IMG/VR virus record: IMGVR_UViG_3300044641_001047
Coordinates: 1-64,000 of that record
Direction: 5' to 3' (one strand)
Origin: a virus
DNA: 64,000 bases
This document shows positions 9,771-35,064 of this stretch, one piece after another (positions within the stretch are counted from its first letter, which is position 1; the number at the start of each line of letters is the position of its first letter). Position numbers and translations under genes: made by a program. The notes under the pieces were generated by a model. That model ran no database searches. It was not told the origin of the DNA and saw nothing but the letters and a program-made list of their open reading frames with translations.

Positions 9771-9771
9771 G

Positions 9772-9793
9772 AAAGGGGCGAAAGCCCCTTTTT
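9772..9793 (+). terminator. Terminator between the converging blocks
   Basis: AAAGGGGC (9772-9779) pairs with GCCCCTTT (9784-9791) around the loop GAAA, and the T-run continues to 9793. It ends the right-pointing replication transcripts. Read on the other strand the stem is followed by TTTCC, so it is less suited to stop leftward transcripts, which would need it because the last leftward stop codon is at 9802-9804. Confidence 0.85.
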
Positions 9794-9801
9794 ATAGCCC
9801 A

Positions 9802-17300: not shown

Positions 17301-20300
17301 TTATCTAATCCAATCTCCTTATCTACACTTTCCATATCCCGTCGAATCTTCTCTTCGATGGCATTGTGGTAGATTTGAGTCATTACATCTCCGACAACTT
17401 CTACAGAACCTTCTAGACCTGAGTTATAGTAATAGAGTCCAGCAGGATCTACGTTAGCAATAGAGTTTTTCTTAGCCTGTCTGTTAAAGATTACATCACT
17501 TGTACCTTTAGGATCAGGTATTATCTGTGGGAATCTTAGTTTAGAAGAGTCTTGTTTAATGATTACAACGTCTTCCATCATACCAGGTCTGTACCTTTCT
17601 ACCTCTTGTCCATTCTCATAAACAATCTCAGTATTCTTTGACAGATTGTAAGGCTCAGTCTTTAAACTCTTCTTAGTACTGAATGCATTAAATACATGGA
17701 CAGGCTGCAGATCATTTCTTCCTGCATAAGCCCCAGACAACTCCATACGTTGTCTTACATCATCCATGATTGGGAAGCTTCTTGTATAATCTTCTACAAG
17801 TGGGAAGTAGGCATTCTTCTGAATCTCTGTCAGAAGTACTCCACCTACACTTTTAACATCTTCATAGTAAGGCTTAAGAGGTTTAATGATTACAGGATCT
17901 CCAGCTTTCATTCCTTTAGGGACAAAGTTTTCTTGATATACAATACCTCCAATACTTCCTCTTTTCTTATATGCTCTGAATGCTTCTATCTCATTTTCTC
18001 CCCACTCTCCTAATCCTTCAGCTATGTATCGATACATATCAATACTGATAATAGCCAGACCATCGGTATCTTCAAAGGTGCCAGGGTTATAGCCTAGCAT
18101 GAATGCTATGTCATCATCTGTATATGGGTCTCCAGTCTTAGGGTTAATTATAGATTTAAGTTTTCCCATAGTACGAGATACATACGATTTTGAAAACTCT
18201 TCTATTGCTTTAGTTATATTACCCCTTGGGTCAAGGAATGTAGATTCATTGAATTCTGGGATCATACCATACTCTTCAACTCCGTCAGCTGGTTTTACTC
18301 CGAGTGTACCTCTGATAGCAGTCAATGTACCTGGAGTTCCAAGTAGTCGTTGACGTTTAGTAAAGGCATCTAGAGAAGCAAAAGCAGCTCTGTTACCACG
18401 AGTAAGCTTTATAATTTCTGCAGTCCCTACATCCTCATGAATAATAAACTCTTTTAGAAGACCTTTTATTGTAAGGACTTTCTTCATCACAGCAGTATCT
18501 TCTTTACTCAGTCCTTCCAAAGCTTCTGCTTCATCAGCTTCCTTTAACTTTGAAAACCTTTTAGCTTCTTTAAGATCTACATCCCCATATCTTCCAGACT
18601 GTATAATCTTTTTTGCCATTACTTCTGCAGCTTGATCGTAGAATAGAGTAAGATTTGAAATCATCTGTGACATTAAATTCTCAAACTGCTTTAAATCTCC
18701 AGTAGGAGTTTCACCAGCTTTTTTAACTTTAATGTAATCTTCTACATAGTCAGACATTTTCATCTGAACCCCATTAGATTTAATCATATAGTCCTGGACA
18801 ATCCTTTCACCAGTCTTACTATTAATTCCATCTAATTGCATGTACTTACCTGACCCGTCTATACCAAGCATTTTACCTGTATGATAATCAATAGCTTTAG
18901 TAGCATTTGGATCATCAATAGTCCTTTGAGCTTGTCTGATTCTCAATAGGTCTTGAAGAATCATATCTCTAAATACCAGAGAATTAGTCTTATAGTCTAG
19001 TTTAGTGTTACCATGGCCTCTAAGTCTAGGCATAAGCATAAACTCTAGATCCTCACGGTCTGCTTGAGTTGGAATAGCACAATAGAAATAATCTTCTTTT
19101 CCATTATTTATAAAGTGATACAGCCTTGTAAATATGTGGTCAATAGTATTGAAGTTTCCATATGCTTCTCCCTCTGCCTCATCAGCTCTTTTGATTACGT
19201 CTGCACTTACAGTACGTAGATCACTGAGATATTGAGGGTTTAGGATCATATGTCTATAGATCATACTATATCCATCCGTACCACTTTTATGATCATGAAT
19301 GTGAAATGGGTCAGTCTTTTGCAACTTAAGTGCATTCTCCCCATTCTTCTCTACATCGGTTTTAATATTAATAATTATGTCGTCAACAGGAGTTCTATGT
19401 TGAATAGGCCATATAGCCTTCCCTTCTCCATTAACGTGGCTCTCTGCAGAGTTAGACATAAACAGTGGGGCCAAGCTTCCTAGGAACTTTACACCAGATT
19501 TCTCTGTATCAAAGAATGGTGTTATATCCTTTTTAGTGTCTCCAAAAAGAGGAACCCCTTTAGAGTCTGTCTCAACTTCAACAAAAGAACTAATTATCGA
19601 GTAAAGACCAGAGTTTTCTACGATATAATCGAAGAGGCCTTTACCATTTAATTTTTCAAGACCCTTTTTCTTCTGCCTTACATACATACCTGCACTCATA
19701 AGACTCTGCAGGTTGTCAATTGTCTCATCTATATTGTAGTCATTCCCAAAGTTAATTCCTAAATTCCATAAAGTGTTAGCTAAAGCTATCACTGCTACTG
19801 ATGGCTCCCCTTCTTTACTAGGAAGAAAGTCTTTGTCCTGACTTGATCTCTTCTTACGAATCTCTGAAAGAGTTTTAAATGACTCTTTTACTGCTTCAAG
19901 TTTACTTTTATTTACAGTAAATGTAGATTTATCTTCTCCCTGTTCATTTTCTTCTACATTTTTATTGTATAGGGCTCTACTTTCAGAGTTTTCAATTGCC
20001 TGCCCATCTACTTGTATTGCATTATTTCTCCATTTTCTTACAGCTTTCTGCTCTGTAGTAGTAACATTAGAGTCAAAGATTTTACTCTTCTTCCCCATAA
20101 TTACAATATGTGTCTTATTTACTGTAGTAGCAAAGTTGCTGAACAGTGCAGACTTCTCCTTAGGACTCATTCTTCTTATGCCACGAGCAATAGATTTATA
20201 GTCATCTCTATGCAGGGCAAAGTTTTCAAGCTTTATCATCATTTCCTCAAACGTCCCTGTATCTGACCACAGTTCTAATAGCTGCTTGTATACAAAATTA

Positions 20301-21823
20301 GGATCATGGTATTTAGGACGATTGCTAAATATTGCATTCTTCTTTTCTGTTGTGATAACTTTCCCACCAGACTGCACTGTCTCTGTAATAGGGAAACGAC
20401 GTAGCATTATCTTGACAGCTTGAGATAATCTTTCTTTGTGAGGTCTCTCAATTCTTTGCTGATTATGCAAGTGCTCTTGAGCTTCTTTGGCATCCAGCTC
20501 TCTAATTTCATCGTCCCCTTCTTCAATGTCTACAAGGGTGACTTTTCCACTTTTGATTATATAGCCATAGTTTCTGAGGTTTCTTTCAACCTCATCTCTC
20601 CATGCTCTGGTTATTACGTTGCCTGTCTTAGCCTCATACTTACCCCTCCAGTTATCAATAACTTTGTAGATATACTCTCGAATCTGTCTTTGGTTCTTTG
20701 CAGCAGCCAGATCTTCTTCTGACATACCTTCTACAATTGGAGGGAAGTTGTTTAACTTAAGTCCAAACTTAGCTTTGTGCTCTTTAAAAACTTTAGCAGC
20801 CTCATCCATCTTATCTTTGAACTCAGGCCTCTTAGTATTCTCATAAGCAATTCTGTACTTATTGTATTCTTTTTCTAAAGTAAGTGCCTCTCTGAGTGGA
20901 GTGATATCTTTTCCCTTAGCTTCTCTTCCATCCTTGTATCTATAAAGATGGCTAAGCAATCCATGTACAATAGTTCCAGCAGTTTTATTATCCCCAAGTA
21001 TGAGATTGATATCTGGGTTCTTCCAGTTTTGAATATCCTGAACCACCATATCAGAGATACCTTCTATGATCTCCTCTACAACTTCAGATGGCATTCCCTG
21101 TACGTGCATTTCAGGACTAATGTCACTCTTCATAAGCTCAGGGTTACGAAGAATCTTTCTCCCCAAAAGGTCGTAGTTGGTTTTGCTATTTCTAAGAAGA
21201 GAGTAAGTCTGCTTAAGAGTTACATTATCTGTAAGCATAGCTTTTATGAAATCAAATAGGTCACTAAACCACTGCTTAATCTTCTGTGGAATAGTCTTAC
21301 TGCTTTCTCCCTCTGTAAGCATGTGCATTCTGAATCCTTCAGCCATCTTCTCCTCGAGTACAAGGTTGTAGGCTTCTTCATCAGATATATCGGGGAACTG
21401 ATTCTTTCTAGCTGTTACTTCTTCATCGGTTGGCTTACCAAATTCTCTCGATGTCTCAGCATATAGGAGAGATCTCTGAGCATCAGACAGCATTGTACGG
21501 AACATCAAGTGATATCCCTCGTGGAACTCAGCACCAACCTCTGCAGCCTTCCATACATTAATTGCCCCGTTGGTTACGTGGCCATGCACAATTCTGTTAC
21601 CAATTTGCTTTATGTAGTCGTAATAAAATATTTTATCCTCACCAAAGGTGTTTTTAACCCATGCAGTAGCTTTTTCTCTTCCTATACTTTCTGGAGTTTG
21701 GCCATAAAATTCAAGGGGCACTTCTCCGTTATATATACTCCATAGAGTATACGGATTTTCTACACCAGATTCTACCAGCTCTTTCCATTCAGGAAGACTT
21801 TCAATAGGACAAGATATACCCAT
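14375..21823 (-). CDS. Giant crAss-type virion RNA polymerase with N-terminal HExxH site
   Basis: This 2482-aa protein contains LMGSDFDVDKMFLLFPE with D1727, D1729 and D1731. That matches the D-x-D-x-D metal-binding loop of the single-chain, two-barrel RNA polymerases of crAss-like phages (characterised for phage phi14:2 gp66), which enter the host with the DNA and transcribe early genes. Residues 100-111 read FHEGYHLMFRTM; H101-E102-x-x-H105 plus LEEKMAEGF near 156-164 resembles a gluzincin-type metallopeptidase site, suggesting a protease domain at the front of the polymerase. It lies between two other giant proteins with 2- and 10-base gaps. Length exceeds phi14:2 gp66 (about 2180 aa). The polymerase call is strong; the protease activity is inferred. 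Confidence 0.88.
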   Translation of the reverse strand: MGISCPIESLPEWKELVESGVENPYTLWSIYNGEVPLEFYGQTPESIGREKATAWVKNTFGEDKIFYYDYIKQIGNRIVHGHVTNGAINVWKAAEVGAEFHEGYHLMFRTMLSDAQRSLLYAETSREFGKPTDEEVTARKNQFPDISDEEAYNLVLEEKMAEGFRMHMLTEGESSKTIPQKIKQWFSDLFDFIKAMLTDNVTLKQTYSLLRNSKTNYDLLGRKILRNPELMKSDISPEMHVQGMPSEVVEEIIEGISDMVVQDIQNWKNPDINLILGDNKTAGTIVHGLLSHLYRYKDGREAKGKDITPLREALTLEKEYNKYRIAYENTKRPEFKDKMDEAAKVFKEHKAKFGLKLNNFPPIVEGMSEEDLAAAKNQRQIREYIYKVIDNWRGKYEAKTGNVITRAWRDEVERNLRNYGYIIKSGKVTLVDIEEGDDEIRELDAKEAQEHLHNQQRIERPHKERLSQAVKIMLRRFPITETVQSGGKVITTEKKNAIFSNRPKYHDPNFVYKQLLELWSDTGTFEEMMIKLENFALHRDDYKSIARGIRRMSPKEKSALFSNFATTVNKTHIVIMGKKSKIFDSNVTTTEQKAVRKWRNNAIQVDGQAIENSESRALYNKNVEENEQGEDKSTFTVNKSKLEAVKESFKTLSEIRKKRSSQDKDFLPSKEGEPSVAVIALANTLWNLGINFGNDYNIDETIDNLQSLMSAGMYVRQKKKGLEKLNGKGLFDYIVENSGLYSIISSFVEVETDSKGVPLFGDTKKDITPFFDTEKSGVKFLGSLAPLFMSNSAESHVNGEGKAIWPIQHRTPVDDIIINIKTDVEKNGENALKLQKTDPFHIHDHKSGTDGYSMIYRHMILNPQYLSDLRTVSADVIKRADEAEGEAYGNFNTIDHIFTRLYHFINNGKEDYFYCAIPTQADREDLEFMLMPRLRGHGNTKLDYKTNSLVFRDMILQDLLRIRQAQRTIDDPNATKAIDYHTGKMLGIDGSGKYMQLDGINSKTGERIVQDYMIKSNGVQMKMSDYVEDYIKVKKAGETPTGDLKQFENLMSQMISNLTLFYDQAAEVMAKKIIQSGRYGDVDLKEAKRFSKLKEADEAEALEGLSKEDTAVMKKVLTIKGLLKEFIIHEDVGTAEIIKLTRGNRAAFASLDAFTKRQRLLGTPGTLTAIRGTLGVKPADGVEEYGMIPEFNESTFLDPRGNITKAIEEFSKSYVSRTMGKLKSIINPKTGDPYTDDDIAFMLGYNPGTFEDTDGLAIISIDMYRYIAEGLGEWGENEIEAFRAYKKRGSIGGIVYQENFVPKGMKAGDPVIIKPLKPYYEDVKSVGGVLLTEIQKNAYFPLVEDYTRSFPIMDDVRQRMELSGAYAGRNDLQPVHVFNAFSTKKSLKTEPYNLSKNTEIVYENGQEVERYRPGMMEDVVIIKQDSSKLRFPQIIPDPKGTSDVIFNRQAKKNSIANVDPAGLYYYNSGLEGSVEVVGDVMTQIYHNAIEEKIRRDMESVDKEIGLDKFRKAIANLVEGHKVKGKVNISHLKSSEDFINAKLELLKNIRTILEKQAIERDMSQNYLDALDITIDPDTLIPRFAIPLDYPVFGKKFQSALLSIYNNNVFKQRLSGTEAVQTAALGGFETNETLKFLEIEDDPNNTKYGVRLAHAEIMIRADVLRKFNLPEGEINLDNIPEELRRIIGYRIPNQDKASMVILKIKAVLPDNYAKAIVVPPQLVKLMGSDFDVDKMFLLFPEVSMKDGVMVKESANYAELASNPELVTKLNEKQLNNIFIDTMEAVLSSPIHFSETLSPLDTAALGNIKDSILEKMPDLEDIPMFTGGMYHTNSAVRNLLGNKLRGKWSNALAGRNVAQHLDINLFDSFAVKIAGEKINTKFLTQVDNPFAAYDHLEFTDKIISRYLNAAVDASKNPFHYIINDNEVTFPVEVLWINFYGDTELMHFFLNQPIIRDFVNIMSDKYNNNLAMVNNGYRQAAALHGINPETEIANNYKRIERTTAMSREDIMNFTLPPAVALRNFMKMYSGGRQIVEMFKVITPDSMDGLNRVEAMQAYMERMEKFANPKDGFVDNAPIALYGRNMSESIIEQVLDEDSPYGLQRGYYKMISETLGVASILFPMTLSSEFIGFKNTLRKIAAPPTNTFTSDQHRDINSAIIFTILTRQDSPLKAFFGKGYSDENYRTSKNKSTLLKQMSMILKKYPKLAGNEFFVKITEDPDNKNSKTFRSLQFDAQQQYTVNEKDRIINDLTDMLYRPEKFLPRLRKGATEKEIAERKKGVEDIKTLGNKLAMHTLIANGFKQTPFNFADLLPPRFLTQPMDRTAEDLEPISISDYLHEQAMKMANGRYFEGEDMLRFLRIFGEMRPGGSNLLQRKNFDEVGKPDKEIDINLEEYSSIPSALVVRTKTDSDVYILGSISKDGKIGKYMVLGKTTNEKKHLVGGATLYPRVVGKSKPIDSVIEKLDVFLDNTMDEEKKGDITQICML

Positions 21824-21825
21824 GT

Positions 21826-24800
21826 TTATTTTTTCTTTTTATTACAAAGTTTATTTACAACTTCCTCTTGTATTTTTTTAGCTTCTTTTTCATTAATATC
21901 TATATCCAACATTTGTTTTACAAAAAATACAAAAGAGGCATTGTCCATAGCACCCATTTGAATTATTTGAGCTTTTAATTGAGCAGCACCATCACCCGAT
22001 GGGCCATTTGAAGCTTTTGCAGATATTATAGATTTTGCAATATTATCCTTAGTAATCTCACCTCCGTCCTCAGTTGAAGTATCTTCATCCTCATCTTCAT
22101 CTTCTTCAACTTCTCTTACCTTCTTAGTAATATTCTTTACAGGACTCTTCTTTTTAGAGTGGTTGGCAATAGCTGGATCGGAGCTTTTCTTAGCCTCTTT
22201 GTAGGCAAAGCTTACTTTTTTGTCTAGTACGTCTCCAAAATTAAGATTCAAAGTAAACTTCTTTTCTACAAAGTTACTAACTTTTAAGATAGTTCCATCA
22301 TCATCATACCTTAAAGGTATAAGTAAGGTACTTCCTTTTCTAACCATTGTAGATACATTGTTCTGTTTAGCATGCCCGTTGAACATATAAGCATAAACAC
22401 TTAGCTGTGCACCATGCTGGTCTCTCTTTGATCTACCATACTTAGTCTCCTCGTAGTTTTCAAGTCCAGAAGCTGTAAGAGTTTTTATATCATATATACG
22501 GTACTCCCCTTTTCTATCCTTAGTAAGAATGTCAAAGGTTCCAGCTATGTTTGGGTAGTTAGGATCAGTGTTGTATACAACCATCTCTACAGCAATTACT
22601 GTTTCTCCTCTTCCCCTTAGCATGCTTTGGATAGCTTTAGCTTGAGTTATAAGGTCGAGATAAGCTACTGAGGACACACCAGCTGGTTTAGTAGCAGGCT
22701 TACCCATAAGTAGGTTTTCAACTAAAGAGTGTACTAACTTACCAGCAGATGATGAGGCTTTCTGAGTTTCAGCAGATCCAGTAAATGGTTCTGATGTCAT
22801 CTTGGATGCCCTTTCGTATTCCTCCCCATTGATAATGTAATGAGTTTCCTCCCCTGTCACGGGATCTTTTTTCATTTCTTCACGGTGTTGATTCTTCTTT
22901 ATATCAGTAAGAATCTCTACCATAGGATCCCCTTTCTCCTCTTCTACCTCAGCAATAGTTCCACTAAGTCCTTGGCTTTTAATCTTTTTGCCAACAACTA
23001 CTTTTTCGTCATCTTCTTCTGTCTCTACAGTTTTAGTTCTTCTACGATTGATAGCCTTTTCCAGAGAGCTTGAATTGCTATCAGTATCTTCTTGTTCTTC
23101 TTCCTCTTCCTCCTCTATTCTCTTAGCTACTTCTCCAATTTCGTCATCATCTAGCAAAGCATTAGTAGAGTCAACTTGGTTGTCCTCCTCATCCATATCG
23201 GATTCGTTTGTATAATCCTCCTGCTCTTTAACTAAAGGTTCTTGTTTGGTAATCTTAGCTTTAGTTACTGTTCTAGAAGTTGTTGGCTTTTCATTTTCTG
23301 CAGCCTGTGCCTTGAATCCTTTTTCATCTGTAATCTCCCCAAAGTTCATCACCACATCAAAGTATGGGGAGAATGTTTTAGGGTTAAGATACACATCAGA
23401 GCTAAGTATACCTGAGTGTCCCTGATCTTTTTCCATATCAGAGATTTCATCAGGGTGAGTTAAATAGTCTAAGTAAGAAGCATATACTAAGCCAGTTACT
23501 TTACTTTCGTATTCGGGGTTTTCAGTTAGAAGGTTAATATCTACTTGATACCTTCTCTTCATTATAGCCTCTTTAAATGCAGAAGCTATTGATCCCATAT
23601 GAGCAGTCCAGTCACTTCTTCCTTCTATTGGTTCAAAGTTTAGACCTCCTTCTTCACCTCTTACTGCTTCTACAAATTGGAATTTAACAAAGCTATCAGG
23701 TTCAGTTAAAGCTAGAGCTAATTGGTCAGAGCTAATAGTAATATAAGTTTCTGCAGAAGGTAGCCAGAAGGTATAGCCTCTTGGAGCTTCTGGGTCAGAC
23801 TTCTCACCATATACTTGTTCAAAAATTAGGTTCCTATTTGCATCATCAATAGCAGCTTCTGCAACTTCGTTGAAACCTACAATCTCTGCTACATCTCCAG
23901 CTCTATCATCTGTAATAGCTTCTACTACTGCATTGTATCCAACCTCAGTCATTTTCTTGGTAGTAGCCCTTATATAAGACAGATCTCCATTTGGGGTACG
24001 AACCAAGATTGCCACTTTACCTAAGTCAGCAGTTGACAATCGTGACAGCAAGTCACCTGGGATTGTTTCATCCTCTTTAAGAACATCCCCTCGGTTTGTC
24101 ACCTCCCACTTTGGTTCTTTTTTGTAGGTTCTAGCAACAAGCAATGTAGGGGTATAAAGTATATTCCCATCTTCATCTACTGGGACAGGATCAAAGAAGA
24201 ATACATTGCCATCCTCAGTCGCTGCATTAGCAATGTTCTGAGAGTCTACATATTTATTAGTAAGAATGGTTGTAGGAATTTTGCCGTTATCCCAAAGATT
24301 GTAGATAGTCTCCCTATCCATAGATCTGCTAGGATTAGAAGGGTTATAACCTTCAAGCAATCCAACTCTTTTAAATCCATCTTTTGTTCTAACTGCTACA
24401 AATATTGGAATGTTTTTCCAGTATTCTGACTCAGATACATTTGGATTATTTTTTACAAATTTCTGCCACCACTCAGTTTCTGGATTAACTTCAAATCGTA
24501 CTTCTGCACCATTTTCTACTATGTCAGAATCAGTCAATAGCTCAGGGAAAATTTGAATTGGAACCCATTTACCATTTTTTAATTCAAACTGTTGTCTTCC
24601 ATCTTTGCCATTAGTTCCATAGTAAGAACTATTAGGAATCGGAGTACCATCCTCGTCAACAAGAATATTATCATAACCGTTAGCATACTCATGTTGGGTT
24701 TTAATTACTGCGATGCTACTCTGGTTCTCTGAATTTTTAACTTCTTCATGAACCGTTTTCTTTCTAAATTGAATGTTACCCTCATCCTCTTCTGGATCTG

Positions 24801-27800
24801 AATCATCAGGCGTCTCTTCTTCTTCCGTTTCAAAACTTTTTGAATTGAATATATCTTGTGTTTCTCCAGTTTCTATGAATACTGGGTTGTCAATTATTTC
24901 AGGGAGTAATGGTGCTACTTCATTTACGTCCACTGTTTCGCCTTCAGGTACTTGAACAGCTCCTTGATTCGTTGTTCCAGATCCTTGTTCTTGAGCAAGT
25001 TGCGAAGCTCTTTGGGAGTCTTGTACATCTTTGCTAGCTTGACTTGATTTTCTATATTCATACTCTTCGGTTAACTTGTTTTTATGACTCTGTTGAATTT
25101 CTCTTTCAGCTCTTGCAACTTCTAAATCTTTTGTAAGCTTTTCAATCTTTTCTCCGTTTACAGGAGAAGCCATTCCTAGTTTTATACTTGCATCTAATGC
25201 TGCAATTTGCTGCTCAAGCCCTATAATAGTTTCGTTTGCAAGATCGATTAAAAGTTCAGCTTCCCCAATTTTATTTTTAATTTCATTCTCAGCTTCCTCA
25301 GACATTTGACCACCTTGATCTTCCGTAGGTTCACTAACAGGAGACAACTGTGTTCTTTTAAAGTAATCTTTAGTTATGGCTTGGAATGCTTTAAGAGTTG
25401 TAGAATACATTGCTCTTGCTCTCTGCACATCTGGATCTTGGTTCATTTCGGCCATGGTCTTACCCTGCCTCATGAACTTCTCCTTAGCCATATTATAAAC
25501 AGAAAGGATGTCAAGAAGATGAGTTCTATGACTATCCATCAACTTCTGTAAAGCTTTATCAGTTATAACATTAGGATCGTACTTAGCCTTACTTCTTAAT
25601 GCCTCAGATAAATTTTGCAATGCATTAAGTCTAGATTGAATCTGCTTTCTAAGTTCTACTTCACTAAGTCCTAAGCTTTCTATAGTTCCTTGAGACTGAT
25701 AAGCCATCAGGATTATCTCTGCAAGTTCTTTTGCAACAGTATCTTTAAACTCAACTGTTTGGTTTTGCTCATTGTGCAGTACTACTTGAGATACTATAAT
25801 AGAACCTGTAAGAGCACTAGCGGGTTTATATTCTGTTATACCCTCTGTCTTAATATCTTCTAGCATCTGTGGATAAGATGCAGCATGCCTATCTATTGTC
25901 TCATCGGATACATTTGCTCTGTTAACTCCTGCTGCGATATCTGCTTTTATTCTTTGTTTAGCTAATTCAGCATTTAAAGGCATTAACTTATACTGAATAT
26001 TAGCACCAGGTATTGCTTTTTTAACAGCCTCTATAAACGGTCTTCTTTTTTCTTTAGTTAAATTGGTGGTATCAAATACCACCTGTTTACCATTCTTCAC
26101 AGCTTCTACTGCTCTTTTAGCAGCTTCAATGTAAATTTCTTTATCTTTAGATTTATCATTTATATCTCCTGTAAACTCAGCTCTCATATCATCAGGAGAA
26201 ATAACTACTAAATTTTCTTGAGGTAAACTTTTTATAAAAGTAGATTTCCCACTTCCAGAAGTTCCTATAGGTAAAATAATATCAGCTTTAGTAGTCGTAG
26301 AGGTGCTGCTTGTTTTAGGTTTAGAAGAAGTAATCTTTTTACCTAATTGTTGTTCTACATGCTTTCCAATTATGTCAACAAATTCATTTGCTAACTGATT
26401 AGTAAGTGCAGCATATCTTTTTTCTACAGCTACAGTTCTTCTATCAGCAGAAGATATATCAGTAGTATTTATTTTACTTAACTCTCCTGCTAAAGGTCTT
26501 AATGCATCTAGTCTTTTTTTATCCTCTTCACTAAGAAAATCAAACTCATTAAGATTTAAGTCTGCTAATACAATTAAATTATCAGCAACTTTTCCCATTG
26601 AAGCTTTAAAAGCATTTAATCTACCTTTAGGCCTAGCTCCTTCATAAAAATCAGATGGCAATACTACTTTAGCATTTCCATAGCCATCTAATCTTTCATT
26701 AAGTCCTTCTATAGGTGTTTTTGTGTTATCATCTGCAGCAGGAGTTTCAGACTGCATGTCCCATTCATAGCCATACCTAATAGCATCTACTGGGTTTTCA
26801 TTAAGGTTCTGATATACTGTCCCGTTAACTCTTATTGTTCTTCCATCGGTACTAAGTAATGCAAAGCTATTTTCATAAACCTTCCCACTTAAATCTGGAT
26901 CTGCTTTCTCATCAGCTTCTTCAGAGAATCCTTTCTTAAGTGCATCTTCTGCTTCTTTCTTAGCAGCTGCTTCAGCAGGAGTTAACTCTCCTTCTTTTAT
27001 ATCTTTCTGCTCAAGACTTTCATTTTTCTTAGCTTCAAGAACAGCAAGTAGTGCTGCAGCTTTAGCAGGAGATTCTTCTTCAATACTTTCAATATCTGCA
27101 ACTAACTCTTCAAGAACCTCCAGTGGGATGTCTTGATAGTCTTTCATGTACTTATCCTCTATAGCCTTAAGCTCTTTATATTTCTTTCTAACCTTAGCTT
27201 TCATTTCAGGACTAAGGTTTTCATGATCTATAAGTTCATCAAGTTCTCTAGTAGAATCTGCATTGTCAACAATTGAGTCAGCTTCTTTATTTGACTTTGC
27301 TACTTTAGCTCGTTGCTCAGCAGCTTGTTTAGCAGCTAGAACAATTTCTCTTTTTTCTGGAGATTTTATCAGCTCGTCAAATGCAGTAGATGCAAGTTCT
27401 CTTGTATATATTCCTGTAATAAAGTCAGCAAGAGCCTTATCAAAGTCCATCTTCTGCAGCTTATCTAAGGTTTCAGATTCTTCTACTGCTGTCCTAAGAG
27501 CTCCAGTTAAACTTTCATTCTCTTTAATATTCTTCTTCTTTGCAGCCTCTTCCGTGGTTGGGTCAGGCTTTGGTTCCCCTTCTTTCTTCTCTTGCTCCTC
27601 TACATCACTAACACTTACGTCAACCAAAGATTTAGGGAGAACTAGATTACCCTGTGCATCTGCTGTTATTTGGTTTCTTTTTATTAGAGTTACAAGTTTA
27701 TTTCTGTCAAAATTTTTAAGAGCTGGAGATAGAGATACTAGTTTTTCATATGCATCGTTAATCTCCTCATCTCTAGTCTCCATACTAATCATGTTAGTAA

Positions 27801-29766
27801 GGAGTATATTTTTAAGTCTTTGATTGTATAGATCTTGGGCAGCTTTTTGAATTTTCTGCTCTTTGTTCATGGTTAGTTTAGCAAGTCCAGATTGATTAGG
27901 GCTCATAAATTGAATAATGTTATCCAATCTTTTCCCCATATCTGAATACTTCTTCATCTCTCCTTTCCACTCTTCTACAATCCCTGACTGAGTTTTACCT
28001 CCTGATTGCTCCAGTAATGGCTTAGACTTATCATAGCCATTTAAATCCATGAAGTCAGCTTCAGGCATTTTGGCCATGTCATCTAGTTTCTCATAAGCTA
28101 GATCTATAGCATCGAGATTATCAAACATGATTGCATGCTGAGCCATGAAGTTTTTACGTAGCTCGTTTGCAAGCTTGTAGTTACCAAGATCAGTAGCAGC
28201 TTTTAGAGCAGCAGAGAATTGTGCTAATTCCTTTTTCTGCTCAAAGCTCTTTCTCATGTTTAAGAAAGTCTCAGAGTTTGTAATGGCCAACAGCTTTTCT
28301 GTATTAGCTTTAACCATTGCTCTTTGTTTAGCAGCTGTTCCAAATGATGTGCTGGTTGCACCCATACCTCCACCAATAAGAGCACCTAGCAGCATGCTCT
28401 CTATTCCATCTGCAGTTCCAAAGGTTTTAGATAGCCCTCTTACTGCAGCTCCTGTCATATCTTCTACCCCAGAATCAAATTTATTCTTGTAGTAATCTAT
28501 TGCAGTCTCTCCAATCATGAACTGAGCACCTTCTTGGAAAGCCTCTGTTAAAGAATTCTCATAGATAGGGGCTGTATATTTTTGAGCTCTATTTAAAAAT
28601 CTTCCAACTCCCGTTGTTGGAAGAGATACTATTCTTTTACCTGCTTGGTCTAAAACAGTTTCTGCTGTAGCTCTTTCCCCAATTTTAACTCCTCTTGCAG
28701 CATTGCCAAACATTAAAAGATTGCTAGTCATAAGAACAGGCATATTCCACCCAAAAGTAAAGTTCTCTACAGCTCTAGCTTCTTCATTTATCCTCTCTCT
28801 ATCACTAGCAGGCATATCCTCTAATGACATTCCTGGGTTATTCTCAAGCCACTCAGACTCTCTTTCCTGAATAAATTGTTTAGACTTTTCTCTAGCTTCT
28901 ACAGAAGACTCAGCAAGAGACATCATGGCCCCTACTTCTAGAGTTTTAGCAGCATTTAAGGTTCTAGCTATATTCCCATATTTAGCAATATCAGCGGTAA
29001 GTTTTGTACCAGTAGCTATCATTTTAGAGGCAGCATATATATTCTTCATAGCCTCCCCTGTAGACACAAGTTTACCTACTTGTCCTGCTCTTCCTGCTGC
29101 AGCCATAGCTTTACCAGCTAAATTAACACCTCTTCCTAATAGCCCAGCTCCACCACTCATCCATGCAGTTGCTAATGATCCTAGTGAATATCCTAATCCA
29201 TTGGCAAATTTATCTGTCCAAAAGTTAGCACTTCCTAAGTTATCCAGCATGCTACGGTCTGGATCTAACTCTGCTTTAGTGTAGTAGTGTGGAAGGTTTT
29301 CACTCATCCATTCATTTGCACTATCTACACTTCTTCCTACAGGATTATTTGCATATGTACCTCCAGCAAGCATAGAGCCTATTCCCCCGATAATACCTAT
29401 GGTATTTTCTGCTACTGCCCCTACTATAGTGGCCCCCATTTTAAGAGCACCGTATCCTAACTTTTGACCAATGCCTTGGTTCTCTGCTCGAATCTCATTC
29501 CAGTCTGCATATGGACTAAGAGGGACTTTATAGCTAGCATAGTTAGCTATTGGATCAGTATAGACATTTGTAAGATCTATAGATCGTGCTTGTAAGTCTA
29601 GACCAGAAAGTTCGTATGGAGATTCCTTAGCCTTAGGGGCAAGTGGTTCACCTACAAATTCTGAGAAGCTACTTAGAGCATCTTTTGGCTTAGATAATTC
29701 TTTTACTGGTAGTCCAGTAAACTTACTAAAACTTTCTAATGGTGCACTTTCTGTTGGTTCTGCCAT
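21826..29766 (-). CDS. Giant cargo protein with polynucleotide-kinase-like and RecB/Cas4-like nuclease domains
   Basis: This 2646-aa protein has two recognisable enzyme domains. At 1165-1310, LPIGTSGSGKSTF (P-loop 1168-1176), VVISPDDMRAEF, VVFDTTNLTKEKRR and a later basic lid segment match the AAA_33 / T4 polynucleotide kinase type. At about 2340-2480, LVHSLVE, AGTFDIL (D2412), YRIYDIKT (D2426, K2428) and GAQLSVYAYMF give the H...D...DxK...Q...Y set of RecB/AddB/Cas4 nucleases. Two short N-terminal repeats (SFSKFTGLP at 12-20, SFSEFVGEP at 33-41) and a glycine-rich hydrophobic region near 100-135 come first. Acidic linkers separate the domains. It lies directly upstream of the RNA polymerase, so it is probably ejected with it. 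Confidence 0.82.
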   Translation of the reverse strand: MAEPTESAPLESFSKFTGLPVKELSKPKDALSSFSEFVGEPLAPKAKESPYELSGLDLQARSIDLTNVYTDPIANYASYKVPLSPYADWNEIRAENQGIGQKLGYGALKMGATIVGAVAENTIGIIGGIGSMLAGGTYANNPVGRSVDSANEWMSENLPHYYTKAELDPDRSMLDNLGSANFWTDKFANGLGYSLGSLATAWMSGGAGLLGRGVNLAGKAMAAAGRAGQVGKLVSTGEAMKNIYAASKMIATGTKLTADIAKYGNIARTLNAAKTLEVGAMMSLAESSVEAREKSKQFIQERESEWLENNPGMSLEDMPASDRERINEEARAVENFTFGWNMPVLMTSNLLMFGNAARGVKIGERATAETVLDQAGKRIVSLPTTGVGRFLNRAQKYTAPIYENSLTEAFQEGAQFMIGETAIDYYKNKFDSGVEDMTGAAVRGLSKTFGTADGIESMLLGALIGGGMGATSTSFGTAAKQRAMVKANTEKLLAITNSETFLNMRKSFEQKKELAQFSAALKAATDLGNYKLANELRKNFMAQHAIMFDNLDAIDLAYEKLDDMAKMPEADFMDLNGYDKSKPLLEQSGGKTQSGIVEEWKGEMKKYSDMGKRLDNIIQFMSPNQSGLAKLTMNKEQKIQKAAQDLYNQRLKNILLTNMISMETRDEEINDAYEKLVSLSPALKNFDRNKLVTLIKRNQITADAQGNLVLPKSLVDVSVSDVEEQEKKEGEPKPDPTTEEAAKKKNIKENESLTGALRTAVEESETLDKLQKMDFDKALADFITGIYTRELASTAFDELIKSPEKREIVLAAKQAAEQRAKVAKSNKEADSIVDNADSTRELDELIDHENLSPEMKAKVRKKYKELKAIEDKYMKDYQDIPLEVLEELVADIESIEEESPAKAAALLAVLEAKKNESLEQKDIKEGELTPAEAAAKKEAEDALKKGFSEEADEKADPDLSGKVYENSFALLSTDGRTIRVNGTVYQNLNENPVDAIRYGYEWDMQSETPAADDNTKTPIEGLNERLDGYGNAKVVLPSDFYEGARPKGRLNAFKASMGKVADNLIVLADLNLNEFDFLSEEDKKRLDALRPLAGELSKINTTDISSADRRTVAVEKRYAALTNQLANEFVDIIGKHVEQQLGKKITSSKPKTSSTSTTTKADIILPIGTSGSGKSTFIKSLPQENLVVISPDDMRAEFTGDINDKSKDKEIYIEAAKRAVEAVKNGKQVVFDTTNLTKEKRRPFIEAVKKAIPGANIQYKLMPLNAELAKQRIKADIAAGVNRANVSDETIDRHAASYPQMLEDIKTEGITEYKPASALTGSIIVSQVVLHNEQNQTVEFKDTVAKELAEIILMAYQSQGTIESLGLSEVELRKQIQSRLNALQNLSEALRSKAKYDPNVITDKALQKLMDSHRTHLLDILSVYNMAKEKFMRQGKTMAEMNQDPDVQRARAMYSTTLKAFQAITKDYFKRTQLSPVSEPTEDQGGQMSEEAENEIKNKIGEAELLIDLANETIIGLEQQIAALDASIKLGMASPVNGEKIEKLTKDLEVARAEREIQQSHKNKLTEEYEYRKSSQASKDVQDSQRASQLAQEQGSGTTNQGAVQVPEGETVDVNEVAPLLPEIIDNPVFIETGETQDIFNSKSFETEEEETPDDSDPEEDEGNIQFRKKTVHEEVKNSENQSSIAVIKTQHEYANGYDNILVDEDGTPIPNSSYYGTNGKDGRQQFELKNGKWVPIQIFPELLTDSDIVENGAEVRFEVNPETEWWQKFVKNNPNVSESEYWKNIPIFVAVRTKDGFKRVGLLEGYNPSNPSRSMDRETIYNLWDNGKIPTTILTNKYVDSQNIANAATEDGNVFFFDPVPVDEDGNILYTPTLLVARTYKKEPKWEVTNRGDVLKEDETIPGDLLSRLSTADLGKVAILVRTPNGDLSYIRATTKKMTEVGYNAVVEAITDDRAGDVAEIVGFNEVAEAAIDDANRNLIFEQVYGEKSDPEAPRGYTFWLPSAETYITISSDQLALALTEPDSFVKFQFVEAVRGEEGGLNFEPIEGRSDWTAHMGSIASAFKEAIMKRRYQVDINLLTENPEYESKVTGLVYASYLDYLTHPDEISDMEKDQGHSGILSSDVYLNPKTFSPYFDVVMNFGEITDEKGFKAQAAENEKPTTSRTVTKAKITKQEPLVKEQEDYTNESDMDEEDNQVDSTNALLDDDEIGEVAKRIEEEEEEEQEDTDSNSSSLEKAINRRRTKTVETEEDDEKVVVGKKIKSQGLSGTIAEVEEEKGDPMVEILTDIKKNQHREEMKKDPVTGEETHYIINGEEYERASKMTSEPFTGSAETQKASSSAGKLVHSLVENLLMGKPATKPAGVSSVAYLDLITQAKAIQSMLRGRGETVIAVEMVVYNTDPNYPNIAGTFDILTKDRKGEYRIYDIKTLTASGLENYEETKYGRSKRDQHGAQLSVYAYMFNGHAKQNNVSTMVRKGSTLLIPLRYDDDGTILKVSNFVEKKFTLNLNFGDVLDKKVSFAYKEAKKSSDPAIANHSKKKSPVKNITKKVREVEEDEDEDEDTSTEDGGEITKDNIAKSIISAKASNGPSGDGAAQLKAQIIQMGAMDNASFVFFVKQMLDIDINEKEAKKIQEEVVNKLCNKKKK

Positions 29767-29767
29767 G

Positions 29768-32059
29768 TTAAAACTTTATTTTTCCTGTTCCTACTATTTG
29801 CTGTACATCTGGATCGTCGATTGCTCTAAACATTGTACTTGGGTTTCCATTTGCACTTTGGAATATAGGAGCACCTAAGTCATCAGAGAAACTTATTGTT
29901 GGATTATTATCTCCAACACTTCTAATAGTTAGTTTTCCAGGTACCTCTCTTGTATAAGTTTGATTCGTAAGCCTGTCTACTTCAGATTTTTCTATATAGA
30001 TATCTCTAGTGTAAATTTTAGGATTATTTACATTCCCACCTCTTGGGGCTTCCATTTGAACTACACTAGCAAGTATAACAGTTGGGTCACTAAGCTTTCT
30101 TAAAATTGGCAAGTTAGCAGTTAAGTAAGCCCCATCTACGTGTACTGTCTTGAATTTATTAACAGCATCTGGATTTTTAGTTTCTAGGATCATTTCCCAC
30201 GTATTGGTATTTGGATCCCATCCGTAATCTTTAACTACGAATCCATCTAGTATAGCAGGATTTGTTATCTTTTGTCCTGCAGATACGTCGTAAGCAGTAG
30301 GAATTGCTACAGCACTTATTGACTTTCCTAGTAAAAAGTCATCTAGAGCTTTTGTAATGGCTATATTTTCCTGGGCATTACCAGTTTGAATTGTTCCATA
30401 GTTGAATACAGAAGATGTTTTAATCTCTGCAAACTTTGCATCAATTTTATCTTTATATACAGATTTAAATTTGTCTACAACTACTTCCGAAGTATTTAGT
30501 TGTTCACCTATAGTTGCATCATAGTTATAGGTTCCTGTACCATATAAGTGAGCTTCAAGTGCTGTAGCACCGTATTTACTATTAAATATTTTCTCGAAGT
30601 CTTTATAATCTTGATCGTCTTTATTATCAAAGGTCGTTAAAATTCTCTGGTATATTTCACCTGGAGATGCCCCTTGCATTTGATCTTTAAATATACTTAC
30701 AATTTTAGGATCTTGTTTTTCCAAATCATCCATAGAAATAGAAGAGCCAGAGGCTTCATTTATTAAGTATTTCTGGTGATTTATCTTTGCAGTATTTGCT
30801 CTTTTTTCGGCAAGCAAGTTTTCTTTTTGTTTTTGAGATAGATTACTTCCTGGACCTACTTCTATGTCGATGTCCCTATTTCTAGCTTCTAGAGAGGAAA
30901 TGGTTTGCATTTTTTCACTAAGTGTTGCCCCACCTACCATATTTGCTGTTACCTCAGAATTTTTATAGATTGGTACATTGTTCTTAGCTGCCTCCATAGC
31001 TTCTTTTCTACGTTCCATGTAAATAGGATCATACTCGTATATAGTACTAGACTTAGTATTTTTATATGCATACTGCATTGCTAAATCCCTTGTAGGATTA
31101 ATTATCTCCTGTTCTATTTTGGATTTTACGTAATTATAAGATGTAGTAGGATCTTTAGCTGCTTCTGTGGCACTGTTTATCTCAGACTGCATTATATTTA
31201 TAGCCTTTTGATACTGTGCTTTTTCAGAAGCAGACATCGTTTTAGAAGCCATCTCTTTCTTATAACCTTCTATTATTTTACCATACTGGTCAATTGTAGC
31301 CTGTATGGTTTGTGGCATAGCTCCTGATTTTTGAATATCATATGTCCTCATATCAGCTTTTTGCTGAACGGCCATTTTAACATCAGGATCAGCCATTACA
31401 TAGTCAAAAGCTTTTTGAACCTCTTCTGGGGTAACCTGTTCAACTCCGTATTCGTTAGTTACTGTATACTTTCCGTCAGGTCCTACCGAAAGTTTGTTAC
31501 TTTTATTGTCGTACTTATCTGGTTTTATAATAGCTAAAGCTTTTGTTAGCTTATCCATTACATCTACATCATTGTAGATGGTAGGGGCAGAAAACATTGA
31601 ACCCTCTTTTACTCTTCCAGTATTAGGATCCATCTCGAATCCTTTATAGTCTCTGGTTATATATGAACCAGATCTAGCATAGGTTTCAGCATCAATGCTT
31701 TTCTTATCATACCTATCTTGTAGATCCTTTAGAGCAGCTTGATATCTATCGTAGTTTTCTTTTATAGGGGCATACTTTTTACTAAAATCTTTTGCTGCTC
31801 TGTGTACAGCAAACCCAAGATTCTCATAGTCACCTCTCTCTGATAGAGATGTTAGAGTTTTATCTATCTCACCCTGCAGTTCTTTTTTTCTATTAACATC
31901 ATTCTCAAATGGCAAAGCAGCCTGCATTTGATCTACTGCCAAGGCTAACTCATCATTTGCTTTAAAATTATCTAGATACCTATTACGTAGTATTTCAGAG
32001 ATCTTTACAGATTGAGGATCTACATAAGTACTGACATACTCACCAAACTGATACGGCAT
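29768..32059 (-). CDS. Putative cargo / ejection protein
   Basis: This 763-aa protein has no recognised domain. The first 150 residues are highly helical (for example RNRYLDNFKANDELALAV), as is the middle (about 250-420), consistent with coiled coils; the C-terminal third is more beta-like. No signal peptide or clear membrane segment is seen. It lies 1 base from the 2646-aa gene and 5 bases from the 999-aa gene, within the row of giant genes that in crAss-like phages encodes proteins carried in the capsid and tail. Cargo function is inferred from position. Confidence 0.65.
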   Translation of the reverse strand: MPYQFGEYVSTYVDPQSVKISEILRNRYLDNFKANDELALAVDQMQAALPFENDVNRKKELQGEIDKTLTSLSERGDYENLGFAVHRAAKDFSKKYAPIKENYDRYQAALKDLQDRYDKKSIDAETYARSGSYITRDYKGFEMDPNTGRVKEGSMFSAPTIYNDVDVMDKLTKALAIIKPDKYDNKSNKLSVGPDGKYTVTNEYGVEQVTPEEVQKAFDYVMADPDVKMAVQQKADMRTYDIQKSGAMPQTIQATIDQYGKIIEGYKKEMASKTMSASEKAQYQKAINIMQSEINSATEAAKDPTTSYNYVKSKIEQEIINPTRDLAMQYAYKNTKSSTIYEYDPIYMERRKEAMEAAKNNVPIYKNSEVTANMVGGATLSEKMQTISSLEARNRDIDIEVGPGSNLSQKQKENLLAEKRANTAKINHQKYLINEASGSSISMDDLEKQDPKIVSIFKDQMQGASPGEIYQRILTTFDNKDDQDYKDFEKIFNSKYGATALEAHLYGTGTYNYDATIGEQLNTSEVVVDKFKSVYKDKIDAKFAEIKTSSVFNYGTIQTGNAQENIAITKALDDFLLGKSISAVAIPTAYDVSAGQKITNPAILDGFVVKDYGWDPNTNTWEMILETKNPDAVNKFKTVHVDGAYLTANLPILRKLSDPTVILASVVQMEAPRGGNVNNPKIYTRDIYIEKSEVDRLTNQTYTREVPGKLTIRSVGDNNPTISFSDDLGAPIFQSANGNPSTMFRAIDDPDVQQIVGTGKIKF

Positions 32060-32064
32060 AGCTT

Positions 32065-35064
32065 TTAGATATTAAATGTTTTTTTACCCTTTGATAATTG
32101 GCCGAGACGACTTGTATATTTTCTAGCTCCCCCCATCTTTTGAGTATTCTTATCCTCTTCTTCTTTTTTACCAAACATGCTTTGATTAACAGTATTAGAA
32201 GCAATCTTTTTCAATTTATCATCACTCATACCATAGTAAGGAGAGTCTTTTCTTTTAGATTCTCTTTTAAGATTCTCGTAAACAGTCCTACGATTGTATG
32301 ATCCTGTTTCATCAAGTGCATCAGCAAGACGTTCTTGAGCTCTATAGGATCTCTCATCTTTAACAATACCAGCAATACGGCCTGCTGCTTTATCTAAAGC
32401 ACCAAGAATCTCTTCCCTCTTATATCTCTTCTCATCAATCTTCAATTTAGCTTCTTGAATACCAGCTTCAAGATTAGCTTTATTAACTGCAAGTCTATTT
32501 TCTACATTAGCCATGTTAGCTCTTTGGGCCATAGCTGCATTAGTTGTAGATGCCTCTTGTCCAAGCTTTGCTTCTTCTGCAGCAAGTTGCTTATTAGCTT
32601 CTTGCTCTTGATTAGCAATTGTAAGCATCTGAGTATTTTGTGCTGTATTAGCAGCCATCATAGCAGCTATACCTCCAGGACCTGCATTGGTATTTTGAAT
32701 TGCATTTTTAATTGCTACAGTATTTCTTTCTGCTGCAGCTCTTTCAGCATTCATATTAACTCTAGGAAGAATGGCACCTCTAACACTACCAGCTCCAACA
32801 TTTCCTCCACCTACCATTCTAGGGAGATTACCTTCGGTCTTATATTTATTAAATAATGCATATCCTACAGGAACTAATTGTCCAAGACCTGCAAGTAAAG
32901 AACCGTTAATTCCTCTTCTAGTATCTGCTACTTGTAAATCAGTAGTTTTTTCAGATTTTGGTAAGCCTGTATCTTTAGTTAAGTCTATTTCAGCTTTTTT
33001 AATAGGCTCGTCTAATCCTCCTTTTGTTGGTATATCTTTTAGATTTGCTACATAAAGTCTAGATGTAGCAGTCTGCTCACCAAATTTACCATCTTCTTTA
33101 AGTTTTTCCCCACTTCTAACTCGGCTATTATATTCTTTTTGGAAGTTTAGAACTTGATCTTTATTAGAAGGATCAAAGTTTGAAAAGTCAAACCAAGGAT
33201 TAGCAGCCTTCATATCTGCATATTGTGCCTCAGTAACATTTCCGTAGAATTTAGCACCTTCATGTTGACCACTAGGAACTCCCTGCATAGATGTACTTGT
33301 ACCATATTCACCTGCTGCAAGAGGTCGTGTTCCTTCTGGGAATCCTGCAGTTTGGTATGTTTTAACCATACCACTATTAGTAGTACGTTTGCCAGGAGCA
33401 GCAGACTGTTGATCACGTGGAGCCATAGCATTAGCTTTATTAACATCTCTAAGTGTTACATTAGCTGCATCCATGTTAGATTGGGCCATAGCTGATTGTT
33501 CTGGTCCAGCCATTTTGTAATGGTGAATACCACCATAAGCTGCTATTTGCTCAGGGCCTCTATCTGGTTCTTTCTTGCTAGCTACAGCTTCTTGCATTTT
33601 AGCAAGTCTTTGGATGTCTGCCTGACTGCCACCAGATTTTAGAATCTCTTTATGTCTTTTAGCAAATGACTTACCACCAAGTTTAAGGTAAGATGAGAAG
33701 AAGTAATCATTAGGCTTACCACCATTCATCATTACCTGATCCATAGTCTCTCCACCTTCTACTTCAGTTTTAGGATCAATCATTATTCCTCCTTGAGAGT
33801 GTTTTCTTCCAACAAACTCTACTGCATCAGAACCTTTGATAGGGACAATTTGTCCCCCTGGAACTTTTCTAGCTCCACCAGTTTCTCCATAGAAAGAACT
33901 AGTAGGCTGCATGTTCATATTAGTTGAAGTATTGTACCCAAAGCCAGTTTGCATTCCCATAAGTCTAGATCCAGTAAATGCTTGATTATATCTTTGGGCT
34001 AAGATATCTTTCTGCTTTGTAAGCTCTGCTTTTCTTTTTCTTTCAGCTTCTGCTCTTTCTGCTTCAAGTCTTCTTTGCTCTTCAGCGTATTCATCAGCAA
34101 TTCTTTTAGACTCTTTGTTTTCTTTTCTTGCCTTAATCAATCCACCTATTGCTCCTACTGCTCCACCAATTATTGCTCCTCCTACTGTTCCTATTGGACC
34201 ACCAGCACTACCGATTATAGATCCCAGTGCTGCTCCTCCTCCAACTCCCGCACCAGCAACTTTCATTGCTTCTCCTAGTGTATTTCTTCTCCCTTCTTTT
34301 CCAGTAAATGTAGTAGGGTCATTATCGTCTCCACTTTTTTCAACTAACATTCCCCCAATATTTAAACCTAGGCCAATACCTGCAGTTGCTAATCCAGTTC
34401 CTATGCTAGCTCCTGTACCAGCTACATTTGCACCTGTACTAGCGGCAGTTGAACCTGCTGTATTAGTTAGTCCAGGTACAATTACATTTCCAACATCATC
34501 CACAAGTTGGGTAGCCGCTGCACTTGCCATTCCAGAACCACTTGCTGCAGCTGTTGATAAAGCAGGAGTAGCTGCATTAATAGCTGTAGGGGCTGCTGAA
34601 CTTACTCCACTAGCTATTGCAGAGGTGGCTCCAGTAGTTAGTGCATTAGTAGCAGTTTTTGTAGCAGCTTCCTCTGCAGCTTTTTGTGCAGCTTTTTGTT
34701 TAAAGTAGCTTGTAGTTAACTCTAGTCCTGAGGTTAGCCCAGATGAAAGAGAGGAATTAACTTCTTGTTGATTAGCAAGTTTTGTCTCAGCTTTAACTTG
34801 ATCTAAAGCTGCTTTTTCACTTGCTTCTCTTGCTTTTCTATCTGCATCTACTTTAATTTGTTCAGCAGCTGCAAAGTCCCCTAAGGATATAGCTTCTTTA
34901 TAAGCTCTGTCAGCCTCTTGTGCAGATTGCTCAGAGAAAGTACCACTTATATAGTAAGGATTGGCTACTTGTTGATAGGTTGAAGAGTTAGCTCCAGCGA
35001 ACTGATACTTCTTAACTAATTGTTTAGTAGCTGGTTTAGATTTAGTTATGGTTTTTCTAGCCAT
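32065..35064 (-). CDS. Cargo protein with glycine-zipper membrane segment and peptidoglycan-binding-like repeat
   Basis: This 999-aa protein has an alanine-rich helical N-terminal third. A long glycine zipper follows at about 268-308 (GGGAALGSIIGSAGG and GGAIIGGAVGAIGGLI), the kind of segment that packs or forms pores in membranes, then a charged coiled coil rich in E, R and A. Residues 636-672 (VLNFQKEYNS ... EDGKFGEQTATSRLY) fit the PG_binding_1 pattern. Short elements such as GGIHHYKMAG, VKTYQTAGFPEGT and GGARKYTSR recur. As the first cargo gene after the muzzle candidate, it may help DNA or cargo cross the envelope. The domains are recognised by eye and the role is inferred. Confidence 0.72.
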   Translation of the reverse strand: MARKTITKSKPATKQLVKKYQFAGANSSTYQQVANPYYISGTFSEQSAQEADRAYKEAISLGDFAAAEQIKVDADRKAREASEKAALDQVKAETKLANQQEVNSSLSSGLTSGLELTTSYFKQKAAQKAAEEAATKTATNALTTGATSAIASGVSSAAPTAINAATPALSTAAASGSGMASAAATQLVDDVGNVIVPGLTNTAGSTAASTGANVAGTGASIGTGLATAGIGLGLNIGGMLVEKSGDDNDPTTFTGKEGRRNTLGEAMKVAGAGVGGGAALGSIIGSAGGPIGTVGGAIIGGAVGAIGGLIKARKENKESKRIADEYAEEQRRLEAERAEAERKRKAELTKQKDILAQRYNQAFTGSRLMGMQTGFGYNTSTNMNMQPTSSFYGETGGARKVPGGQIVPIKGSDAVEFVGRKHSQGGIMIDPKTEVEGGETMDQVMMNGGKPNDYFFSSYLKLGGKSFAKRHKEILKSGGSQADIQRLAKMQEAVASKKEPDRGPEQIAAYGGIHHYKMAGPEQSAMAQSNMDAANVTLRDVNKANAMAPRDQQSAAPGKRTTNSGMVKTYQTAGFPEGTRPLAAGEYGTSTSMQGVPSGQHEGAKFYGNVTEAQYADMKAANPWFDFSNFDPSNKDQVLNFQKEYNSRVRSGEKLKEDGKFGEQTATSRLYVANLKDIPTKGGLDEPIKKAEIDLTKDTGLPKSEKTTDLQVADTRRGINGSLLAGLGQLVPVGYALFNKYKTEGNLPRMVGGGNVGAGSVRGAILPRVNMNAERAAAERNTVAIKNAIQNTNAGPGGIAAMMAANTAQNTQMLTIANQEQEANKQLAAEEAKLGQEASTTNAAMAQRANMANVENRLAVNKANLEAGIQEAKLKIDEKRYKREEILGALDKAAGRIAGIVKDERSYRAQERLADALDETGSYNRRTVYENLKRESKRKDSPYYGMSDDKLKKIASNTVNQSMFGKKEEEDKNTQKMGGARKYTSRLGQLSKGKKTFNI

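Follow-up and report, generated by a model that had tools for sequence, protein, structure and literature searches.

The gp47-like gene and its neighbourhood

The window, by which we mean the whole 64,000-nucleotide stretch of DNA analysed here, comes from a virus record of 76,496 bases. The terminase, portal and major capsid protein of this phage match crAss-like families. On the minus strand, an open reading frame encoding 2646 aa runs from an ATG at position 29766 down to 21826 with no internal stop codon. This ORF, its parts and its neighbours are as follows, with the basis of each assignment in brackets.

9802..14364, minus strand: gp49-like RNA-polymerase-associated chain, 1520 aa (crAss001 gp49, 27% identity over 684 columns, E = 9e-38)
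14375..21823, minus strand: predicted virion RNA polymerase chain (gp50-like), 2482 aa (crAss001 gp50 homology; SDFDVDK motif)
16631..16645, minus strand: codons for DFDVD, the catalytic motif of the RNA polymerase chain (motif at residue 1727; also in crAss001 gp50)
21826..29766, minus strand: gp47-like giant cargo protein, 2646 aa (single open frame; crAss001 gp47 homology; synteny)
22207..22896, minus strand: predicted RecB/Cas4-type PD-(D/E)XK nuclease domain, residues 2291–2520 (PF12705, motifs, AF2, Foldseek)
25798..26760, minus strand: lineage-specific insert, residues ~1003–1323, comprising modules A then K (missing from orthologues; GC3)
25816..26295, minus strand: module K, predicted polynucleotide-kinase-type P-loop kinase, residues 1158–1317 (AAA_33, PHROG 505, AF2, Foldseek)
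26302..26742, minus strand: module A, residues 1009–1155, of no known family (shared with L118, L120/L177 and L178)
29768..32059, minus strand: ORF occupying the place of cargo protein 2 (gp46), 763 aa (synteny alone)
32065..35064, minus strand: cargo protein 1 (gp45)-like ORF, 999 aa (weak crAss001 gp45 match and position)

The 2646-aa ORF is 25–32% identical to gp47 of crAss001, with E-values of 9e-18 for the N-terminal part and 3e-12 for the nuclease part. By homology, it is an orthologue of gp47 and a member of the crAss-like gp47 cargo family. The preliminary description had placed it beside a virion RNA polymerase, and this adjacency was confirmed: the ORF at 14375–21823 is 34% identical to crAss001 gp50 around SDFDVDK (E = 1e-21). 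A search against PDB sequences left the polymerase chain unplaced, and its identity rests on the gp50 homology. The 999-aa ORF matched crAss001 gp45 weakly (E = 0.005) over a region that includes the portal-binding segment, and sequence comparison of the 763-aa ORF gave no significant match. Overall, the neighbours match crAss001 gp42, gp43, gp44, gp45 (weakly), gp49 and gp50 in corresponding order, such that the order gp43-gp44-gp45-gp46-gp47 beside gp50 and gp49 is present in the window, gp46 by position only. In crAss001, gp49 and gp50 lie on the opposite strand to gp47; in the window, by contrast, all are on the same strand.

A zincin-like motif, HEGYH, lies at window positions 21509–21523, corresponding to residues 101–105 of the polymerase chain. 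The HExxH segment that ends crAss001 gp47 (HEAFH; residue 2157 in L002) has its counterpart at the start of the polymerase chain in the window (E = 8e-8). Judging from this similarity, the boundary between the gp47 and polymerase chains is shifted around a zincin-like domain. Elsewhere in the window, a 928-aa ORF at 3023–5809 carries an HATPase_c_3 (gyrase B/Hsp90-type ATPase) domain, and the structural block includes a gene for a PHROG 704 DNA-repair exonuclease at 44717–45868. No tRNA genes were found in the window.

A kinase-bearing insert and an ancestral nuclease domain

The preliminary description had also read a P-loop kinase pattern and a separate nuclease pattern in the 2646-aa chain. 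Both sets of motifs are in place: GTSGSGKST at residue 1168, SPDDMR at 1190 and DTTNL at 1232 for the kinase, and D2412, D2426, K2428 and GAQLSVYAYMF at 2452 for the nuclease. The pattern G[TS]SGSGK[ST] occurred in none of 2000 shuffles of the protein, so its presence is not due to chance.

Profile searches and structure prediction bore out the kinase call. Pfam AAA_33 matched residues 1163–1297 at 5.1e-16 (59.7 bits against a cut-off of 27), and module K matched the PHROG 505 polynucleotide kinase family at 2.3e-13. Compared as a single sequence with the sequences of solved structures, K found the kinase domain of Clostridium thermocellum (Cth) Pnkp alone; a K profile added Pnkp1 of Pnkp1-Rnl-Hen1, and these two were the only credible relatives. 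A C-type-lectin match in the profile search was rejected as a repeat artefact. The AlphaFold (AF2) model of K had a mean pLDDT of 88.9. In a Foldseek search with this model, all of the 13 best PDB matches were polynucleotide kinases, headed by the Cth Pnkp kinase (E = 4.6e-9, TM 0.77). In an alignment of 16 K copies (A1), the P-loop, PDxMR, DTTN and three arginines of the lid region, assigned to the lid by alignment only, were invariant. The PDxMR motif aligns with the general-base aspartate and the arginine of Cth Pnkp and T4 Pnk. In the Pnkp enzymes, these two residues have catalytic roles. Together, the sequence and the model suggest, with moderate confidence, that K acts as a 5′-kinase on polynucleotide ends. 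No 3′-phosphatase domain was seen in the 2646-aa chain.

Alignment with orthologues delimited an insert of ~320 aa around K. The flanks align until residues ~1002–1022 and resume at 1321–1324, with almost nothing between in the orthologues, and are 45–48% identical in the closest orthologues found. The insert is absent from crAss001 gp47, from seven IMG/VR orthologues aligned together and from the orthologues of a further alignment. One orthologue lacking it belongs to a genome, G003 (L009), whose terminase is 97% identical to that of the window phage. The GC3 of modules A and K is 0.13 and 0.15, respectively, as compared with 0.25–0.30 in other parts of the gene. The reading frame is continuous across both joints, and no direct repeat of 8 or more bases was found between them. 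An intein was considered and rejected, a splicing (Hint) domain being absent from the Pfam matches of the chain. K is thus a later-acquired insert in a gp47 protein that has an ancestral nuclease at its C-terminus, and this gp47-plus-K arrangement was found in this one record only. Module A, which had no Pfam match, is 68–77% identical in L118 and L120/L177 and also occurs in L178. In two of these phages (L118 and L120), it lies without K at the C-terminal end of the polymerase chain. Because module A occurs alone there, the insert combines two modules whose histories are separate.

The RecB/Cas4-like nuclease call likewise held, on the basis of a profile match and of a predicted fold that was confident in one model of five. 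In a Pfam scan of the full chain, all PD-(D/E)XK families fell below threshold; segment 2291–2520 scanned alone matched PF12705 (PDDEXK_1) with 29.6 bits against a cut-off of 22. The key residues are D2412, D2426, K2428, Q2454 and Y2458. The motifs A-G-x-x-D, Y-D-x-K-T and Q-x-S-x-Y were invariant in alignments of six and of ten relatives (A2 and A4), which took in the window protein, IMG/VR orthologues, crAss001 gp47 and one more distant chain. The best AF2 model had a pLDDT of 88.5 and the other four ~63, which calls for some caution in its use. The top PDB matches of the model were Cas4 SSO0001, EXO5, MGME1, AdnAB and RecE, with AddAB and RecBCD lower; E-values with Cas4, EXO5, MGME1 and AdnAB ranged from 2e-6 to 7e-4, but TM scores were 0.3–0.5. 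A PDB profile search with the nuclease returned nothing credible. Cas4 proper was rejected as an assignment: the four-cysteine iron-sulfur cluster is absent, and the aligned nuclease segment of the window protein contains no cysteine. The domain is missing in orthologues L126–L129, of which L126 is truncated by the contig end. A PD-(D/E)XK domain was described in a large transcription-associated protein of some crAss-like phages by Yutin et al. 2021 (PMC7886860). The nuclease is an old feature of the gp47 family, and this half of the fusion is already known in kind. The domain is presumably catalytically active.

Distribution and spread of module K

To survey relatives in IMG/VR, we used pieces of the terminase, kinase and nuclease as queries; a scan with the whole 2646-aa protein, whose scan patterns are not conserved, retrieved zero relatives. 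K was present in 29 IMG/VR loci and in L121 (~30 contigs), with 58–94% identity over the module in unbroken copies. All of the K-bearing records are incomplete metagenome contigs, and near-duplicates among them (L101/L144, L109/L110 and L147/L148) bring the number of independent events below 30. The bacteria that these phages infect are probably aquatic Bacteroidetes. An alignment with 60-residue flanks revealed that K has abrupt boundaries at both ends. Outside the module, the K-containing chains did not match the window protein, save for weak gp47-like similarity in two hosts. Using the polymerase motif and homology to the window's gp47, gp50 and gp49, we assigned the sites of K as follows.

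In the gp47 slot directly before the polymerase gene: window, L144/L101, L159, L163
N-terminal in the polymerase chain: L111, L155, L156, L157
Within the polymerase core: L121 (40 residues past SDFDIDK; polymerase homology is back ~430 residues later)
C-terminal in the polymerase chain: L110, L145, L146, L147, L149, L151, L152, L165
Between polymerase and gp49 parts: L113 (5316-residue fused frame, incomplete)
In the gp49-like or next chain: L112, L154, L158, L161, L162

Some of these sites may be one ancestral site, since the polymerase C-terminus and the gp49 N-terminus are adjacent in both fused and split forms. At least three sites are clearly different: gp47, the polymerase N-terminus or core, and the polymerase/gp49 junction.

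Several K-bearing chains have further features. An ART-PolyVal domain lies beside K in two hosts (L149 and L154), and zincin-like HExxH motifs occur in K-bearing or neighbouring chains. In L119 and L121, a further insertion of ~140 residues interrupts the kinase near the lid, an insertion within an insertion, and L121 also has a DUF7831 domain after the kinase. L158 carries a UvrD_C_2 helicase fragment (8501–12400) in the chain upstream of the kinase. In L122/L166 (~9914–10604), the kinase is 97% identical to that of the window and is broken by a frameshift, as expected of a decaying copy or else of a sequencing error.

We then compared the kinase with the terminase of the same phages. Among the 45 pairs formed by the ten genomes with both genes, mean identity was 84% for the kinase and 33% for the terminase. 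Genome pairs whose terminases are only 19–30% identical have kinases that are 80–88% identical. At the nucleotide level, K copies are 77–94% identical to that of the window, with a dS of ~0.8 and a dN of ~0.12, indicating that substitutions in K have not reached saturation and that purifying selection acts on it. In 18 of 23 hosts, the GC3 of the kinase was lower than expected from the codon usage of the host chain for the same residues (Wilcoxon p = 7e-5). K is therefore compositionally foreign to most of its hosts. Among GTDB genomes, the kinase had no close relative, and a bacterial source was not found. The simplest account of these sequence comparisons is that K has been transferred horizontally between crAss-like phages.

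In one pair, G022 and G023 (L102 and L103), the terminases are 99% identical and the kinases only 92%, which suggests module replacement or local fast change. The large-terminase frames of G023 and G033 (L139 and L132) are interrupted by ~340–370 extra residues, intein-like in size.

Possible role of K and relation to known systems

Since crAss001 gp47 was detected by mass spectrometry in virions, together with gp45, gp46, gp49 and gp50 (PMC10172136), we strongly infer that its orthologue in the window is packaged and injected. According to the ejection model, virion-polymerase chains enter the cell, probably partly unfolded, and then refold (PMC10172136). A gp47-type cargo protein would share the phage head with the virion RNA polymerase and be ejected into the host cell before the DNA or together with it, and any domain inserted in an ejected virion-polymerase chain would enter the cell along with it. 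In the window phage, K would presumably refold after ejection.

We consider it likely that K is a mobile 5′-end kinase cassette that rides any virion-polymerase cargo chain and functions in early end restoration. In many crAss-like phages, independent insertion events would have placed the cassette in one or another chain of the virion-polymerase complex, these chains serving as interchangeable vehicles that bring it into the cell. Once inside, K would most likely phosphorylate 5′-OH ends of RNA, or of DNA, produced by host nucleases that are active in the first minutes, and the phosphorylated ends would become ligatable before any phage gene is expressed. K occurs in various chains and positions, in one case inside the core of the polymerase, so its exact location seems to matter little; this pattern suits a payload better than a working part of the polymerase. 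RNA is favoured as the substrate on two grounds: the characterized enzymes closest to K work in RNA repair, and infection activates anticodon nucleases such as PrrC, which phages counter with repair enzymes (PMC2610378).

With respect to a sealing partner, RNA ligase PF09414 was found in none of 18 K-bearing contigs, which are incomplete, and DNA ligase in three of the 18, which is not decisive. No RNA-ligase partner of K was found in them, the PF09511 search having had no working positive control. As a phage RNA ligase was not found beside K, a host ligase would need to complete the repair. Alternatively, K could tag 5′-OH RNAs for decay. RNA repair by K might conceivably serve as counter-defence. 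The fuller proposal, that the cassette jumps as a bare protein domain among the giant chains of the polymerase complex and, in the first minutes of infection and ahead of phage gene expression, provides pre-packaged mending or protection of ends as a counter-defence against host ribonucleases or nucleases, is plausible, at slightly under an even chance; K would jump even into the polymerase core because the giant chains are a generic injection vehicle.

K might instead be more than a passenger and serve transcription by the virion polymerase, for example by phosphorylating the 5′-OH of transcripts or primers. Consistent with such a role, K lies in a chain of the transcription block in every classifiable host. 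However, its place varies between the gp47 slot, the N-terminus, core and C-terminus of the polymerase and gp49-like chains, so that the geometry is not fixed, and close relatives of the window phage live without K. We therefore regard a role in transcription as unlikely.

It is rather unlikely, too, that the payload is a kinase for a substrate other than a polynucleotide, be it a zeta-toxin-like small-molecule kinase or one of the tRNA/O-phosphoseryl-tRNA type, that alters host metabolism. Zeta_toxin (PF06414) did score above its cut-off in several K copies, though far more weakly than AAA_33, and phosphoseryl-tRNA kinases appeared at ranks 14–18 of the fold search. Against this, polynucleotide kinases fill every one of the best places in that search ahead of them, the credible relatives of the K profile among PDB sequences are limited to Cth Pnkp and Pnkp1, and PDxMR aligns where Cth Pnkp and T4 Pnk have their general-base aspartate and their arginine.

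The preliminary description had proposed end-repair or host-DNA-processing activities for the chain, and a single enzyme that trims and phosphorylates the ends of phage or host DNA would account for the presence of both domains in the same chain of the window phage. Orthologues have the nuclease without K, however, and many hosts have K without this nuclease; among the examined records, the two co-occur only in the window copy. The kinase and nuclease have thus probably not co-evolved, K being a lineage-specific mobile insert and the nuclease old, and we consider a single enzyme improbable. Finally, a chimeric assembly or a selfish intein, as might be suspected from an arrangement seen in a single record, a base composition unlike the rest of the gene and the abundance of inteins in crAss-like phages (PMC7886860), is very improbable given that the frame is preserved at both joints and that K is embedded in ~30 other contigs with a conserved active site and a dN well below dS.

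Returning to the mobile cassette, the phage enzymes known to repair tRNA or DNA ends are synthesized after infection. If packaged, a kinase would act sooner, prior to the expression of phage genes, when host nuclease defences hit first. From the survey, crAss-like phages may use their giant virion-polymerase proteins as general delivery chains with swappable enzyme domains, which provides a handle on the large size and variability of these proteins. The sites of K also constitute a list of natural insertion points that tolerate a foreign domain.

In the open-licence literature, we found no earlier account linking a polynucleotide kinase with crAss-like phages or with a virion RNA polymerase. 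The closest counterpart of the window protein, crAss001 gp47, has the same N-terminal half, C-terminal PD-(D/E)XK domain and gene order. Unlike the window protein, gp47 and its orthologues, annotated as a putative RNA-polymerase subunit and virion cargo, lack the kinase insert. The polynucleotide kinase of crAss001 is instead a small separate gene, gp61, whose product is 27% identical to K (E = 4e-4). The PD-(D/E)XK proteins of crAss-like transcription blocks (PMC7886860) share the nuclease and the protein class with the window chain; by contrast, the examined text of that paper does not mention a kinase alongside.

Among kinases, the closest solved folds and sequences are those of Cth Pnkp and of Pnkp1 in Pnkp1-Rnl-Hen1 (PMC4411300), with which K shares the P-loop, D-x-x-R and lid. 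Those enzymes are soluble and have phosphatase and ligase partners, whereas K is a kinase domain on its own, embedded in a virion cargo chain. T4 Pnkp (PseT) shares the kinase fold as well (ranks 20 onward in the fold search), and the nearest sequence in a cultured phage is a stand-alone Bacillus phage kinase (36% identity). T4 Pnkp and the stand-alone phage kinases are separate enzymes synthesized after infection; K would come with the virion.

The window chain also resembles the polyvalent proteins, very large multi-enzyme chains that are predicted to be co-injected with DNA (Iyer et al. 2017, PMC5512222). It combines disparate enzymatic domains, the kinase and the nuclease, in one large chain, as polyvalent proteins do, and, going by crAss001, it would be injected with the DNA. 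In the polyvalent concept, a multi-domain chain may, once injected, be cleaved by a peptidase of its own (PMC5512222), and the ART-PolyVal domains and HExxH motifs near K are consistent with that concept. The kinases described for polyvalent proteins, however, are protein kinases in reduced form, and that paper nowhere uses the term "polynucleotide kinase" (PMC5512222); what distinguishes the present system is a polynucleotide-kinase domain that moves among virion-polymerase chains. The window chain with K is best read as a variant of an injected polyvalent protein, in which the kinase half is unexpected and the nuclease half is known in kind.
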